From: Barrientosiimonas humi
GTDB lineage: Bacteria > Actinomycetota > Actinomycetes > Actinomycetales > Dermatophilaceae
NCBI RefSeq assembly: GCF_006716095.1
Contig: NZ_VFOK01000001.1
Coordinates: forward strand, 186,001-250,000
DNA: 64,000 nt
Direction: 5' to 3'
Notes under the pieces: model-generated
Databases searched by the model: none
What the model was told of the DNA's origin: nothing
Seen by the model: the letters and a program-made list of their open reading frames with translations, nothing else
Program-made: the position numbers and the translations under genes
In this document: piece after piece, positions 20,730-50,768 of the stretch
Layout of the letters: each line of letters begins with the position of its first letter
Position numbering within the stretch: position 1 is the stretch's first letter

Positions 20730-20799
20730 GCATGAAACCGGGTTAGGTGCGTTTGACCCCCATCGATCGAGGTCAAACGCACGTAACCCGGTTTCATGC
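20730..20799. repeat. 70-bp hairpin element, copy 1 (29-12-29)
   Basis: Arms of 29 nt (20730-20758 and 20771-20799) starting GCATGAAACCGGGTTAGGTG, pairing with one mismatch around a 12-nt loop. The same element occurs at 48970-49039 with perfect arms and a different loop. Here it lies just after the polyprenyl synthase stop, between convergent genes, and could stop transcription from both sides, although it has no U-tract. Confidence 0.9.
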
Positions 20800-46390: not shown

Positions 46391-47419
46391 TCAGCGGGTC
46401 CGGGTCTGCGGGGCGGGGCGGGCGGTGGAGTCGCGACGGACGAGATCGCCTGGGAGAGAGAAGGTTTCGGGTGCGGCCTCGGCGGCGAGGACGAGCTCGA
46501 CGGCCTTCTCGGCCATCTCCTGGTGGGGCGGGGCGACGGTGGTCAGCGGCGGGTGGAGCGACTCGACGATCGGCTCGAGGTTGTCGTGGCCGATGACGGT
46601 CAGGTCCTCGGGGATGCGCAGCCCGAGCCGGCGCGCGGCCTCGTAGGCGCCCATCGCCATCCGGTCGTTGAAGCAGGCGAGCGCAGTCGGGCGGTCGGGA
46701 CGGTCGAGCAACGACAGCGCGCCCTCGAGACCGCCCGCGGTGGTGGCGGCGAAGTCGGGCGAGACGTGCACCCGCAGGTCGTCGTCCGCGCGGCCCTGCT
46801 GCTCCCACGCGGCGCGGAGGCCGGCGAGGCGGCTCTCGGCCTCCAGCGACGGGGCGATGGTGACCAGCCCGACCCGCTCGTGGCCGAGCGAGCACAGCTC
46901 GTCGACCACCAGGGCGGCCATCGACCGCTCGTCGGGAAGCACCGTCGTGACGGGCGAATCTGTCTGTGCTGTCTCAAGATTCAGCAGCACCAGCCCGCGC
47001 GATCGGGGAGTCTCGATGCGACGGTGATAGATCGAGGCGAGGATCGTGCCGCTCACCTGCTGGCCGGCCGCGTGGTCGAGCGCGTCGCGCAGGCGGGTCG
47101 GCTCGCCACCGGTCGGGAGCAGCAGCACGCGCACCCCCTGCTCCCAGCAGGCGCGATAGAGGCCGTCGAGCAGACCGAGCCCGTAGGGCAGCGTCGACAG
47201 GTCGTCCTCTGCGACGACGGCGACCGCCCGCTCTGGGGTGGTCCGCAACCGGCGGGCCGCGACGTTGGGGGTGTAGCCGAGCTGCTCGGCCGCCTCGTGG
47301 ATGCGCCGGCGGGTGTCGTCGGAGACCCGGGCGGTCGCCTTGCCGTTGAGCACCACGCTGACCGTCGAGGGGGCCACCCCGGCCAGGGCGGCGACGTCGC
47401 GGATGCGCGGGACCGACAT
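46391..47419 (-). CDS. LacI-family repressor of the alpha-galactoside operon
   Basis: 342 residues. N-terminal helix-turn-helix RDVAALAGVAPSTVSVVLNG followed by the hinge helix PNVAARRL. The periplasmic-binding-like effector domain ends with LVRRDSTARP, usual for the family. ATG at 47417-47419 chosen over upstream in-frame codons because it begins the standard MSVPRIRDVA N-terminus. First gene of the operon, so it is likely autoregulated; a dyad touching its start codon is the candidate operator. The inducer is probably an alpha-galactoside or galactose. Confidence 0.92.
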   Translation of the reverse strand: MSVPRIRDVAALAGVAPSTVSVVLNGKATARVSDDTRRRIHEAAEQLGYTPNVAARRLRTTPERAVAVVAEDDLSTLPYGLGLLDGLYRACWEQGVRVLLLPTGGEPTRLRDALDHAAGQQVSGTILASIYHRRIETPRSRGLVLLNLETAQTDSPVTTVLPDERSMAALVVDELCSLGHERVGLVTIAPSLEAESRLAGLRAAWEQQGRADDDLRVHVSPDFAATTAGGLEGALSLLDRPDRPTALACFNDRMAMGAYEAARRLGLRIPEDLTVIGHDNLEPIVESLHPPLTTVAPPHQEMAEKAVELVLAAEAAPETFSLPGDLVRRDSTARPAPQTRTR

Positions 47420-47462
47420 TGACGAATCCTTTCGGCAGACACGCTGAAAAAACGATTCGTCA
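47420..47462. promoter_or_regulatory. Inverted repeat touching the LacI start codon, candidate operator
   Basis: TGACGAATC (47420-47428) and GATTCGTCA (47454-47462) are perfect inverted arms 25 bp apart. Pairing extends partly into T-runs next to the arms. The left arm abuts the LacI ATG, so binding there would block transcription or translation of the whole operon. Single LacI operators are usually compact palindromes, so this may be two half-sites or an mRNA hairpin. Confidence 0.5.
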
Positions 47463-47501
47463 CTGTGGCACGGGTCACGCCGGAGCGGCAAGGCTCGGAC
47501 A

Positions 47502-47544
47502 GAAAAAGGCCGCTGACCTGGGCGGATGCCTCAGGTCAGCGGCC
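47502..47544 (-). terminator. Strong intrinsic terminator after the small membrane-protein genes
   Basis: On the minus strand a perfect 13-bp stem, GGCCGCTGACCTG paired with CAGGTCAGCGGCC around an 11-nt loop (stem at 47508-47520 and 47532-47544), is followed by TTTTTCT. It lies 23 bp after the stop of the last small gene and 83 bp upstream of the LacI start, separating the two operons. Confidence 0.92.
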
Positions 47545-47567
47545 GGGAGAGCTGCGGTGGGCGTACG

Positions 47568-47774
47568 TCAGACGCCGCCGCCGCCGCTCGCGTTGCGGCT
47601 CTGGTGCGCGTTGCGCCACTGGGTGCCGTTGGTGCGCGACCCCTCGGCGCCGAGCGACACCCCGTCGCTGAGGTTGCGCTTGGAGCCTCCGGCGCCGCCG
47701 CCGCGTCGCGCGACGACAGCGATCAGCCCGAGGAACACCAGCAGGACGATCGCGATGCCGATGTAGAAACCCAT
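47568..47774 (-). CDS. Small single-pass membrane protein, paralogue 1 of 5
   Basis: 68 residues. MGFYIGIAIVLLVFLGLIAV is an N-terminal membrane helix, followed by ARRGGGAGG and the soluble tail KRNLSDGVSLGAEG ... QWRNAHQSRNASGGGGV. The ATG at 47772-47774 is preceded by AAGGGGG at good spacing; an ATG two codons earlier is too close to that site. Paralogue of the next two genes upstream (shared MGFYIGIAVVLL, a basic glycine patch and an RxL(S/T)(D/E) motif). No known family recognised. Last gene before the intrinsic terminator. Confidence 0.8.
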   Translation of the reverse strand: MGFYIGIAIVLLVFLGLIAVVARRGGGAGGSKRNLSDGVSLGAEGSRTNGTQWRNAHQSRNASGGGGV

Positions 47775-47886
47775 GACCATTCCCCCTTCGGTTGGTGACC
47801 GCCATCCTCCCACCTGCCGCGGGCGCGACGGGGTTTATGCACCGTCCGTGACCGGATCGAGGCCGCCGCCCACGGCGGGGCCGGGG

Positions 47887-48087
47887 TCAGTGGCCGCCCC
47901 ACCCGACGTTCTTGGCCTCGGTGTGGCGCGTCTCGTTGCGCTGCCTCGTGTAGGCACTGTCGCCGGTGCCGACGCCCTCGCTCAGCTCCCGCTGCCGACG
48001 ACCGCTGCCACCTCCACGGCGCGCGATGGCGTAGACCAGTGCGCCGAGCACCAGCAGCACGACGGCGATCCCGATGTAGAACCCCAT
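47887..48087 (-). CDS. Small single-pass membrane protein, paralogue 2 of 5
   Basis: 66 residues. MGFYIGIAVVLLVLGALVYA is the membrane helix; then IARRGGGSGRRQRELSEGVG and a polar tail with AYTRQRNETRHTEAKN. AGAGGAGA lies 5 bp before the ATG. The N-terminal 20 residues are almost identical to paralogue 3. Tail sequence diverges, suggesting the helix and basic patch are the conserved function. Confidence 0.82.
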   Translation of the reverse strand: MGFYIGIAVVLLVLGALVYAIARRGGGSGRRQRELSEGVGTGDSAYTRQRNETRHTEAKNVGWGGH

Positions 48088-48154
48088 GACGGTCTCCTCT
48101 GGTTGATGGCGATTGGTCGACGCCGCGGCGCGGTGGGGTGTCCGCCGAAGGGAC

Positions 48155-48376
48155 TCACCTGCCGAAGGTGCCGCCGTGCCGCGCGTTGCGGTAATCCTGC
48201 TGCGCCTGGGCCCGGTGCAGGTTCTGGATGCTGGAGCGTTCGTGCTCGCTGCCGGTCGACAGCTGGTCGGTCAGATTGCGCTTCGTTGCCGCGCCACCAC
48301 CGTCGCGCCGAGCGATGACGTAGACCAGTGCGAAGAGCACCAGCAGCACGACGGCGATCCCGATGTAGAACCCCAT
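48155..48376 (-). CDS. Small single-pass membrane protein, paralogue 3 of 5
   Basis: 73 residues. MGFYIGIAVVLLVLFALVYV then IARRDGGGAATKRNLTDQLS and a longer charged tail (SSIQNLHRAQAQQDYRNARH). The ATG has GGGAGGT 4 bp upstream. The frame is open further upstream, but without a ribosome site. Same orientation and spacing pattern as its neighbours. Confidence 0.82.
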   Translation of the reverse strand: MGFYIGIAVVLLVLFALVYVIARRDGGGAATKRNLTDQLSTGSEHERSSIQNLHRAQAQQDYRNARHGGTFGR

Positions 48377-48425
48377 GGCTACCTCCCTCGGCTGCTCGTG
48401 CTTGATCAGTGGTCCGTCGGGCTGC

Positions 48426-48626
48426 TCACGGCGGCATCGCGCTGCCACCGCGCTTGGTCGCGAACTCGGTCGAGGCCGAGGTGTTGTTCGCTCCGCGAGC
48501 CCCGCCGGTCAACGGTTGCCGCCGGTCGACGCGCGACCGGTCCAGGTCGCGGCGGCGGCGCACCGAGTAGCCGAGCACGGCGATCAGCACGGCCAGCGTG
48601 ACGACGGCTGCGATGACGTATCCCAT
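48426..48626 (-). CDS. Small single-pass membrane protein, paralogue 4 of 5 (second subtype)
   Basis: 66 residues. MGYVIAAVVTLAVLIAVLGY forms the helix, followed by SVRRRRDLDRSRVDRRQPLT and the C-terminal block SASTEFATKRGGS. That block is shared with paralogue 5 but not with 1-3, so the cluster holds two subtypes. GAAAGGGG precedes the ATG. Confidence 0.8.
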   Translation of the reverse strand: MGYVIAAVVTLAVLIAVLGYSVRRRRDLDRSRVDRRQPLTGGARGANNTSASTEFATKRGGSAMPP

Positions 48627-48687
48627 GACGTCCCCTTTCGTCAGGACGGTGCCGCGCTGACCTTCCGGTGCGGTGCGGCGAGGTCGA

Positions 48688-48894
48688 TCAGCCCACCGGG
48701 CCGACGGTGCCACCCGATCGTTTGGTGGCGAACTCGTTCGAGGCCGAGGTGCTGTTGCCCCGGGATCCGCCGCGGGACAGGTCCCGCGGGTCGCGGTGCG
48801 TGAGGTCGCGGTCGCCGCCACGGCGTATCGCCAGGCGGATCACCCCCACCAGCACGAGCGCGGCCACGAGGAGGCCGACGACGTAGTAGCCCAT
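48688..48894 (-). CDS. Small single-pass membrane protein, paralogue 5 of 5 (second subtype)
   Basis: 68 residues. MGYYVVGLLVAALVLVGVIR is the helix; IRRGGDRDLTHRDPRDLSRG and the block SASNEFATKRSGG follow. GGAGGGG precedes the ATG at good spacing. First gene of the cluster in transcription order; its promoter should lie in 48895-48969, where I could not pick clear hexamers. Confidence 0.8.
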   Translation of the reverse strand: MGYYVVGLLVAALVLVGVIRLAIRRGGDRDLTHRDPRDLSRGGSRGNSTSASNEFATKRSGGTVGPVG

Positions 48895-48969
48895 GCGAAC
48901 CCCCTCCGGGAGAGTGACCTCCATCATCCCACCGAACGGCGCTCCTCGGCACGCCTTGTGACGCTTTCG

Positions 48970-49039
48970 GCATGAAACCGGGTTACGTGCGTTTGACCTT
49001 GATGGATTCGGGTCAAACGCACGTAACCCGGTTTCATGC
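48970..49039. repeat. 70-bp hairpin element, copy 2 (29-12-29, perfect arms)
   Basis: Arms 48970-48998 and 49011-49039 (GCATGAAACCGGGTTACGTG ...) are perfectly complementary around a 12-nt loop. Same arms as the element at 20730, different loop. Lies between the permease gene end and the small-protein cluster start, both on the minus strand, so here it is not between convergent genes. Confidence 0.92.
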
Positions 49040-49127
49040 GCAGGGTCGGGGGCGTGGCTCGTACGCCGGTGGCGGCTGATCAGGGCCTGGCGGGATCACC
49101 GCGCGGCGGGATCAGGGAGTGGCGGGA

Positions 49128-50768
49128 TCAGGGAGTGGCGGGCAGGACGTGGGTCCCGTCGCGGTCGGTGGCCAGGCACAGCGAGCACAGCGCCCCGGCG
49201 CCGGTGGCCGAGTGCAGCATGTCGGGGCGCTCGAACGTCTGCGCGCACACCATGCAGTCGAGCTCGGCGGCCGAGGGGTTGCCCAGCTCGTCGCGCATCG
49301 GCAGGTGGGCGAGACCGTCGTCGCCCCGGCGAAGGTAGAACCGCCCGCCCGTCGCCACGGCGATGACCGGCGGGAGCGTCGCGGCCAGGACCACGGCGAC
49401 GGCGGCCGAGTAGGGCTGCAGGCCCTCGCCCAGCGCGCCGAAGTAGCACGCGATGGACACCCCGCCGCCCACGACGACGGTGCCGAAACCGACCGGGTTG
49501 ACCGCGTGGAGCATGCCGCGCCGGAACTCCGGCTCCTTGGGGGACAGGCCGAGGACGTACTTGTTGATGGTGATGTCGCTCGCGACGGCGACGATCCAGA
49601 CGATGCCGAGGTTGGCGTAGAAGCTCAGGATGCTGTTGAGCACGCTGAACATGTCGGCCTCCATGAGCGCCAGCGCGATGCCCACGTTGACGAAGACGAA
49701 CACCAGCCGTCCCGGGTAGCGGCGGGTGAGCCGGGTGAAGGAGTTGGTCCAGGCGAGCGAGCCGGAGTAGGCGTTGGTGACGTTGATCTTCAGCTGGGAG
49801 ATCACGACGAGCACGACGGCCAGCACCATCGCGAGCCACGGCGGCATGAGGCGTTCGTAGACGGCGAGGAACTGGTGCACCGGTTCGTTCGCGACGCCGG
49901 CGCCCTCTGCCGAGCGTCCGATCAGGTAGACCGCGAGGAACAGTCCGACCGCCTGCTTCAGCGCGCCGAGCAGCACCCAGCCGGGTCCGGCGGCGATGAC
50001 CGCGGTCCACCAACGTCCAGCGTTCTCAGGGGTTTTCGGCGGCATGAACCGCAGGTAGTCGATGTTCTCGGCGATCTGCGCGATGAGCGACAGGCAGACG
50101 CCCGCGGCGAGCATCGCCGAGGCCAGCGAGGCGGTCTGCTGCCCGTCGCTGCCGCGATAGTCCCAGAACGCCTCGACGCTGCCGGGCTCGACGGCGAGCA
50201 GGTAGCCGAGCGGCGCCACCATGAGCACCAGCCACAGCGGGGTGGTCCACAGCTGCATCTTCGCCAGCGCCCGCATGCCGTAGATCACGAGCGGGATCAC
50301 GACCAGGCTGGAGACGGCGTACCCCAGCCACAGCGGGATGCCCAGGCCGATCTGCAGGCCCTGCGCCATGATCGATCCCTCGAGCGCGAAGAAGATGAAG
50401 GTGAACGTCGCGAAGATGACGTTGGTCAGGATCGAGCCGTAGTAGCCGAAACCGGAGCCGCGGGTGATCAGGTCGAGGTCGAGGTTGTACCGCGCGGCGT
50501 AGATCGCGAGCGGGATGCCGGTCAGGAAGATCACGGCGGCCGCGATGGCGATGCCCCACAGGGCGCTGGCGGTGCCGTACGCCATCCCGATGTTCGCGCC
50601 GATCGCGAAGTCGGCGAGGTAGGCGATCCCGCCGAGCGCCGAGGTCGCGACGACGCCGGGTCCCCACCGGCGGTACGACCGTGGCGCGAAGCGCAGCGTG
50701 TAGTCCTCCAGGGTCTCGCTGGGGTCGCCCGCGGCGCGGGTCTCGACTGGTGCGGTGGTCGTGGCCAT
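49128..50768 (-). CDS. NCS1-family nucleobase permease with a C-terminal four-cysteine motif
   Basis: 546 residues from the ATG at 50766-50768. NCS1 (purine-cytosine permease/allantoin) transporters import nucleobases or related compounds with cations. About twelve membrane helices; the N-terminus ETLEDYTLRFAPRSYRRWGP and the GGIAYLADFAIGANIG helix fit the family. After the last helix comes a ~75-residue cytoplasmic tail with CMVC ... CSLC (CX2CX19CX2C), a zinc-ribbon-like arrangement not usual in this family. A 16-bp direct repeat (GGCGGGATCAGGGAGT, twice) spans the stop codon. Proximity to urease suggests uptake of a nitrogen compound, but that is inference. Confidence 0.85.
   Translation of the reverse strand: MATTTAPVETRAAGDPSETLEDYTLRFAPRSYRRWGPGVVATSALGGIAYLADFAIGANIGMAYGTASALWGIAIAAAVIFLTGIPLAIYAARYNLDLDLITRGSGFGYYGSILTNVIFATFTFIFFALEGSIMAQGLQIGLGIPLWLGYAVSSLVVIPLVIYGMRALAKMQLWTTPLWLVLMVAPLGYLLAVEPGSVEAFWDYRGSDGQQTASLASAMLAAGVCLSLIAQIAENIDYLRFMPPKTPENAGRWWTAVIAAGPGWVLLGALKQAVGLFLAVYLIGRSAEGAGVANEPVHQFLAVYERLMPPWLAMVLAVVLVVISQLKINVTNAYSGSLAWTNSFTRLTRRYPGRLVFVFVNVGIALALMEADMFSVLNSILSFYANLGIVWIVAVASDITINKYVLGLSPKEPEFRRGMLHAVNPVGFGTVVVGGGVSIACYFGALGEGLQPYSAAVAVVLAATLPPVIAVATGGRFYLRRGDDGLAHLPMRDELGNPSAAELDCMVCAQTFERPDMLHSATGAGALCSLCLATDRDGTHVLPATP

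Follow-up and report, generated by a model that had tools for sequence, protein, structure and literature searches.

A tandem array of five small, predicted one-helix membrane proteins in two subtypes, with a likely relative near ureD in Luteipulveratus mongoliensis

Small membrane proteins are common, and few of them have known partners. What could be the role of five such proteins encoded one after another, in two subtypes? The array that raises this question consists of five minus-strand ORFs at 47568-48894 of the window, by which we mean the whole 64,000-nt stretch of DNA analysed, and encodes proteins of 68, 66, 73, 66 and 68 aa. In reading order, the type B small membrane proteins P0001 (48688..48894, minus strand, 68 aa) and P0002 (48426..48626, minus strand, 66 aa) are followed by the type A small membrane proteins P0003 (48155..48376, minus strand, 73 aa), P0004 (47887..48087, minus strand, 66 aa) and P0005 (47568..47774, minus strand, 68 aa).

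Two groups of paralogous genes and a shared leader

The genes are separated by 61, 49, 67 and 112 bp, and each is preceded by a Shine-Dalgarno-like, purine-rich ribosome site. That there are five genes of 66-73 codons on one strand, with their own ribosome sites and gaps of 49-112 bp, had been claimed by the sequence-only reading and is borne out by the ORF coordinates. The array ORFs show the GC pattern of coding DNA, with 0.88-0.93 at codon position 3 and 0.46-0.60 at position 2; at position 3, four neighbouring genes lie above them (0.95-0.98). P0001 has in-frame alternative starts 30 and 33 bases upstream, which would give 78 or 79 aa, and its database relative P0010 (78 aa) was called from the nearer of the two. 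P0005 has a second in-frame ATG two codons upstream.

For each of the pairs P0003-P0004, P0003-P0005, P0004-P0005 and P0001-P0002, none of 2000 composition-preserving shuffles (helix, tail) scored as high over the whole protein as the real sequences. Judged by these comparisons, the three type A genes and the two type B genes form true paralogue groups, and the paralogy proposed earlier within each subtype holds for all A-A pairs and for the B-B pair. Across the subtypes, the scores of P0001 against P0003, P0004 and P0005 were reached by 0, 11 and 1 of 2000 shuffles, whereas P0002 has no significant similarity to the same three proteins (384, 609 and 184 of 2000). Consistent with this, a type A profile run on the own genome picked up P0001 at E 4.6e-4 but not P0002, and it found no further copies below E 0.001. 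What links the subtypes is therefore P0001, together with their position and the leader common to P0001 and P0005. The shuffles and the own-genome profile search support the idea that a one-helix protein family was duplicated and retained. The shared motifs are partly as first described. The type A sequence MGFYIGIAVVLL is exact in P0003 and P0004, whereas P0005 reads MGFYIGIAIVLL; the RxL(S/T)(D/E) tail motif is present in all three type A proteins (RNLTD, RELSE and RNLSD); and the type B motif SASxEFATKRxGG reads SASNEFATKRSGG and SASTEFATKRGGS, its final xGG not being exact in P0002.

The array ends in an intrinsic terminator (47503..47544, minus strand), in which a hairpin at 47508-47544 is followed by five U. 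Its fold has a z of -4.84, with 0 of 200 shuffles equally stable, and a separate terminator scan flagged a shorter form of the same stem; the strong terminator reported at this end is thus confirmed. A 20-nt leader, GGTGGGAKGATGGMGGTCAC, occurs exactly in two places of the 3.65-Mb genome, and both are in the array: one copy (GGTGGGATGATGGAGGTCAC, 48914..48933, minus strand) starts 39 nt before the ATG of P0001 and the other (GGTGGGAGGATGGCGGTCAC, 47795..47814, minus strand) starts 40 nt before that of P0005. A third genomic place, found by whole-genome scan, has three mismatches, and P0002 has a one-mismatch leader-like site at 71 nt, within the end of P0001. Part of the P0001 leader can be read as an in-frame extension, as in P0010, while the corresponding ATG in the P0005 leader is out of frame. 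We take the leader to be a duplicated promoter or translation leader, a putative role for both copies. The word operon, used in the sequence-only reading, has to be qualified, since leader copies before both P0001 and P0005 would suggest two transcription starts instead of a single one.

Two leaders, several copies and small one-helix proteins with basic tails would also suit an array of type I toxin-like, membrane-active peptides silenced by antisense RNA, and each ribosome site has 4 to 6 of its 8 bases paired in the predicted folds. We find this reading very unlikely. Against it, none of the five translation-start regions is more stably folded than its shuffled versions (z -0.23, 0.59, 1.49, 0.81 and 0.39), the window has no Rfam match, and no sigma-70-like promoter was found on either strand of 47350-49150, the last being a weak test in such a genome.

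Predicted topology and the conserved part of the proteins

In each protein a hydrophobic stretch of ~20 residues comes right after MG and is followed by RR and a tail. The RR after the helix is invariant across 11 aligned sequences, and so is a glycine near the C-terminus. The tails comprise 44-51 residues (RR counted), are rich in G, S, N, T, R and Q, and carry a net charge of +4 to +7. Because RR directly follows the helix and no charged residue precedes it, the positive-inside rule, which is well established, predicts that each protein has a single membrane helix with its N-terminus outside and its tail in the cytosol. The same two features of the sequence led us to reject the possibility that these are secreted proteins. 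The AlphaFold model of P0005 has a helix at residues 2-24, where the first two ten-residue blocks have pLDDT values of 86 and 90, compared with 47-61 in the remainder. The model of P0001 has a helix at residues 3-25 and low confidence elsewhere. Both models, a helix with a low-confidence tail, have pTM values of 0.32 and 0.30. As the confidence of AlphaFold is low there, the tail is predicted to be disordered.

Which part of these proteins matters is answered differently by different comparisons. Between P0005 and its close relative P0008, a database protein, the tail is identical at 28 of 29 positions (residues 32-60) and the helix at 15 of 24, which favours the tail as the part that matters. 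When the type A paralogues are compared, the helix has lower non-synonymous than synonymous divergence per site (pN/pS 0.06/0.14, 0.16/0.38 and 0.20/0.38), whereas the tail is not clearly constrained (0.50/0.53, 0.38/0.33 and 0.46/0.56), and this argues against the tail as the working part; the estimates are rough, as the sequences are short and strongly diverged. Type B is the reverse of type A, in that the tail is the more constrained and the helix has similar synonymous and non-synonymous differences. The helix of P0008 is nearer to that of P0004 (21/24 identical; score 87, against 59 to P0005), and its tail is nearer to that of P0005 (score 171, against 37 to P0004). P0008 may thus be a recombinant of array members, as if arrays recombine.

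Narrow distribution and a likely relative near ureD

No known family in Pfam, NCBIfam, PHROG or PADLOC and no solved structure in the PDB fits the array proteins, so that the description of the set as undescribed stands for these collections; a literature search found nothing on the family, which is not proof of unpublished status. The best PHROG match (E 0.0023) covers part of a profile of 474 positions, a single match of the lysis class has E 0.026, and no relative was found in viral contigs for either query (A1, A2); we therefore rejected a phage or holin-like identity.

Among ~5.8 billion proteins, four clusters were retrieved with the type A profile and two with that of type B. The relatives found there are only close copies and one distant relative, P0017, a hypothetical protein of 69 aa from L. 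mongoliensis, which emerged from a profile that already included its ORF. Homologues outside the strain, on which the sequence-only reading had made its proposal depend, are thus found as close copies in other contigs and as this likely distant relative. A scan of genome contigs with type A gave 86 pattern matches and no relatives, and possibly left out the own genome. Within 186 genomes of the family, the type B profile matched the own genome only at E up to 0.001; the type A profile did likewise below E 0.001 and matched 24 further genomes up to E 0.05. As at most 32 candidates per genome were scored in this search (15 in a wider first look), a diverged relative could be missed, and the weak matches inspected were those fetched as loci. 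A 66-aa one-helix ORF of similar appearance was rejected as a relative because its alignment is no better than chance.

Beyond the family, matches were seen in 39 of 396 genomes at order level (E up to 0.01) and 10 of 394 at class level (E up to 0.001), own genome included in both counts. We read those outside the own genome as chance helix similarity. The frames that hold them have at least 163 residues in all nine class-level cases and 58 to 2703 residues at order level. The best order-level match (E 3.4e-5) lies in a 152-residue frame holding an 83-aa candidate, which by eye we take to resemble a SHOCT-type protein. We judge the family to be young and lineage-restricted.

A distribution as narrow as this would be expected if the array were a neutral or selfish expansion, that is, a fast-evolving, short-lived orphan family with little fitness effect, and it agrees with the type A tails and the type B helix, where the per-site differences of the two kinds, synonymous and non-synonymous, are similar. 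Such an account, possible but doubtful in our view, has to accommodate the near-identity of the P0005 and P0008 tails (28/29), the constraint on the type A helix among paralogues, and the recurrence of copies in 13 contigs for the P0003 cluster and in 10 for the P0009 cluster.

P0017 resembles the array proteins in its MG start, its one helix, an RRGG, a hydrophilic tail ending in FGGGTSI, a leader-like site and a place near ureD. It starts 99 bp after ureD, and in the window the array lies 4.5 kb after that gene. It differs in being one copy at its locus, in a tail net charge of +1 instead of +4 to +7, and in having no adjoining permease. Its leader-like element, AGTGGGATGA, lies 41 nt before the ATG with one mismatch in ten; matches of this kind also occur in 8 of 922 80-base stretches of the L. 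mongoliensis locus and in 7 of 1598 of the window. Among the five array proteins P0005 is the nearest to P0017: 0 of 2000 shuffles reach the observed score, compared with 4 for P0004, and the scores to P0003, P0001 and P0002 are not significant (197, 419 and 1321 of 2000). When P0017 was searched against the 186 family genomes, the best non-self match was P0005 (E 8.2e-5 over residues 1-67), by a small margin, since the next match (E 3.4e-4, in an open frame of 388 residues from another genome) follows closely and, up to E 0.05, at least one match occurs in 61 of the 186 genomes. With the type A profile, P0017 came fourth among the non-own matches (E 0.004), behind three (E 0.0022-0.0035) whose open frames are 146-300 residues long.

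The urease neighbourhood offers a further comparison. UreG is present in 41 of the 186 family genomes, own included, and urease loci were fetched for 36 of the 40 relatives; the four left out (G014, G021, G022 and G025) have the most diverged UreG. Together with 80 named loci, the best 80 of 342 confirmed, these make up 116 urease loci, with some genomes in both sets. Among their 14,587 small ORFs, the type A profile matched the L. mongoliensis ORF at E 1.8e-4, the next match being at E 0.89, and the type B profile found nothing in these loci (best E 0.45). The location supports the weak sequence link of P0017, yet the small gene was seen in 1 of the 36 urease loci of relatives and not found in the other 35. 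We conclude that P0017 is likely, but not certain, to be homologous to the array proteins.

In the window, ureC, ureF, ureG and ureD lie upstream of the array on the same strand. The window UreG is closest to those of two genomes with the same genus label, G088 (84% identity) and G089, which is L. mongoliensis (81%), placing the host near Luteipulveratus (Dermacoccaceae in NCBI). Between the urease genes and the array are genes for an O-acetylhomoserine sulfhydrylase, a CoA-binding protein, a family-less membrane protein and a permease-like protein; downstream come LacI, alpha-galactosidase, GalT and a pair of importer permeases. A Pfam scan of 17 neighbouring ORFs gave matches for 11 (the downstream five, CoA-binding, O-acetylhomoserine sulfhydrylase and four urease proteins) and none for the other six. 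The membrane protein P0013 (50825-51580) has no family match above cut-off; 4 of the 36 urease loci of relatives contain a counterpart of it, which is encoded on the opposite strand to ureD and at most ~0.2 kb away. For the permease-like P0011 (49128-50765), neither Pfam (searched to E 10) nor NCBIfam (to E 1e-5) has a family above cut-off; the protein bears two CxxC pairs at its C-terminal end, and 8 of the 186 family genomes, counting the own one, have it at E up to 1e-100. A P0011-like gene lies ~0.1 to 1.7 kb after ureD in five relatives (G088, G028, G020, G178 and G001). The 233 bp between the array and the permease-like gene contain a genome-wide palindromic repeat. This REP-like element (48970-49039, and again at 20730-20799) has 29-nt arms and a 12-nt centre; its 20-nt half arm has 34 forward and 40 reverse genome matches at up to three mismatches, and the reversed control has none.

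These neighbours bear on two further readings. Tandem small cationic peptides made without a leader, each with its own ribosome site, could be multi-peptide leaderless bacteriocins, clusters of which occur in Actinomycetota (PMC11580447). According to the same paper, however, such bacteriocins have mean lengths of 50-55 aa, against 66-73 aa here, and are often accompanied by ABC export or PH-domain proteins, and no PH-domain or export match was found among the 17 neighbouring ORFs (six of which match no Pfam family); the paper also holds that there is no conserved immunity family to test for. Moreover, the RR that follows the helix would keep the tail on the inner side, and we regard this reading as highly improbable. 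RiPP precursors were rejected, as no modification enzyme is among the 11 of 17 neighbours with a Pfam match, the other six matching none. We consider the bacteriocin, type I toxin and RiPP readings less likely.

A tentative role at a membrane partner, and known systems

That the proteins might bind one another, with types A and B as distinct subunits of a hetero-oligomeric assembly, is suggested by the two subtypes kept side by side and by the invariant G2 and G6 of the type A helix, which have the spacing of GxxxG, a known helix-packing motif. Type B is without this spacing, and L. mongoliensis has a single small gene at its locus and, in the genome-wide P0017 search, one match, itself; we think such an assembly unlikely. 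Neither it nor the stress-response role suggested in the sequence-only reading has direct support.

Our best explanation, offered tentatively and as possible rather than probable, is that these two subtypes of one-helix proteins with a predicted cytosolic tail serve a larger membrane protein, on which they dock as accessory proteins. Their layout and the absence of catalytic residues would fit proteins that bind others. We chose this reading by analogy, as the best-studied one-helix bacterial proteins act by binding larger membrane proteins (PMC10710835, PMC7267776 and PMC11539335). The models of P0005 and P0001 are likewise predicted to be short one-helix proteins, as expected of transporter modulators. 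Against a regulator reading, small-protein regulators are defined as generally <50 aa in PMC10710835, and the array proteins, at 66-73 aa, exceed this.

As accessory proteins, they would dock on a larger membrane protein through the helix and engage a cytosolic partner through the tail, and duplication would tune the choice of partner. The array probably grew from a single leader-bearing gene near the urease operon, with the first and last copies retaining the leader and the inner genes probably being read through. The permease-like protein encoded just upstream would be the nearest candidate partner. It is a weak one, because 233 bp and a repeat intervene and because in L. mongoliensis the 18.5 kb examined around the small gene do not include that permease; in the one of 36 urease loci of relatives that has the small gene, no permease lies beside it, so that no constant linkage to a partner gene, which would help this reading but is not needed for it, was found. 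Several partners at a single membrane site would be in keeping with a helix that stays constant and tails that change. One may go further and suppose a newly arisen adaptor set, in which one urease-neighbourhood microprotein was multiplied into two subtypes and five proteins, each made of a helix and a tail, and the tails pick out different partners in the cytosol while all sit at the same membrane site, an elaboration in which we place little faith. As a named species has what is likely an outgroup copy, the array allows gene birth, duplication and divergence to be followed, and one deletion would remove all copies that the searches found in the own genome.

Among known systems, CcmD (TIGR03141) resembles P0002 in that the P0002 helix matches its model at E 0.01. 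The match scores 15.9 bits against a cut-off of 25.95 and no haem-export family is among the 17 neighbouring ORFs, so this identity was rejected. The leaderless bacteriocins of Actinomycetota (PMC11580447) are likewise small basic peptides, sometimes several per cluster; the array differs from them in its helix-plus-tail layout and in having no export or immunity family among its family-matched neighbours. A precedent for a one-helix protein binding a transporter is AcrZ (PMC7267776), with further examples given in PMC10710835. Compared with AcrZ and the other small-protein modulators of transporters, the array proteins have longer tails, matched no such family model, and have a partner that is only proposed here; what they have in common with them is that they are one-helix proteins without catalytic residues.
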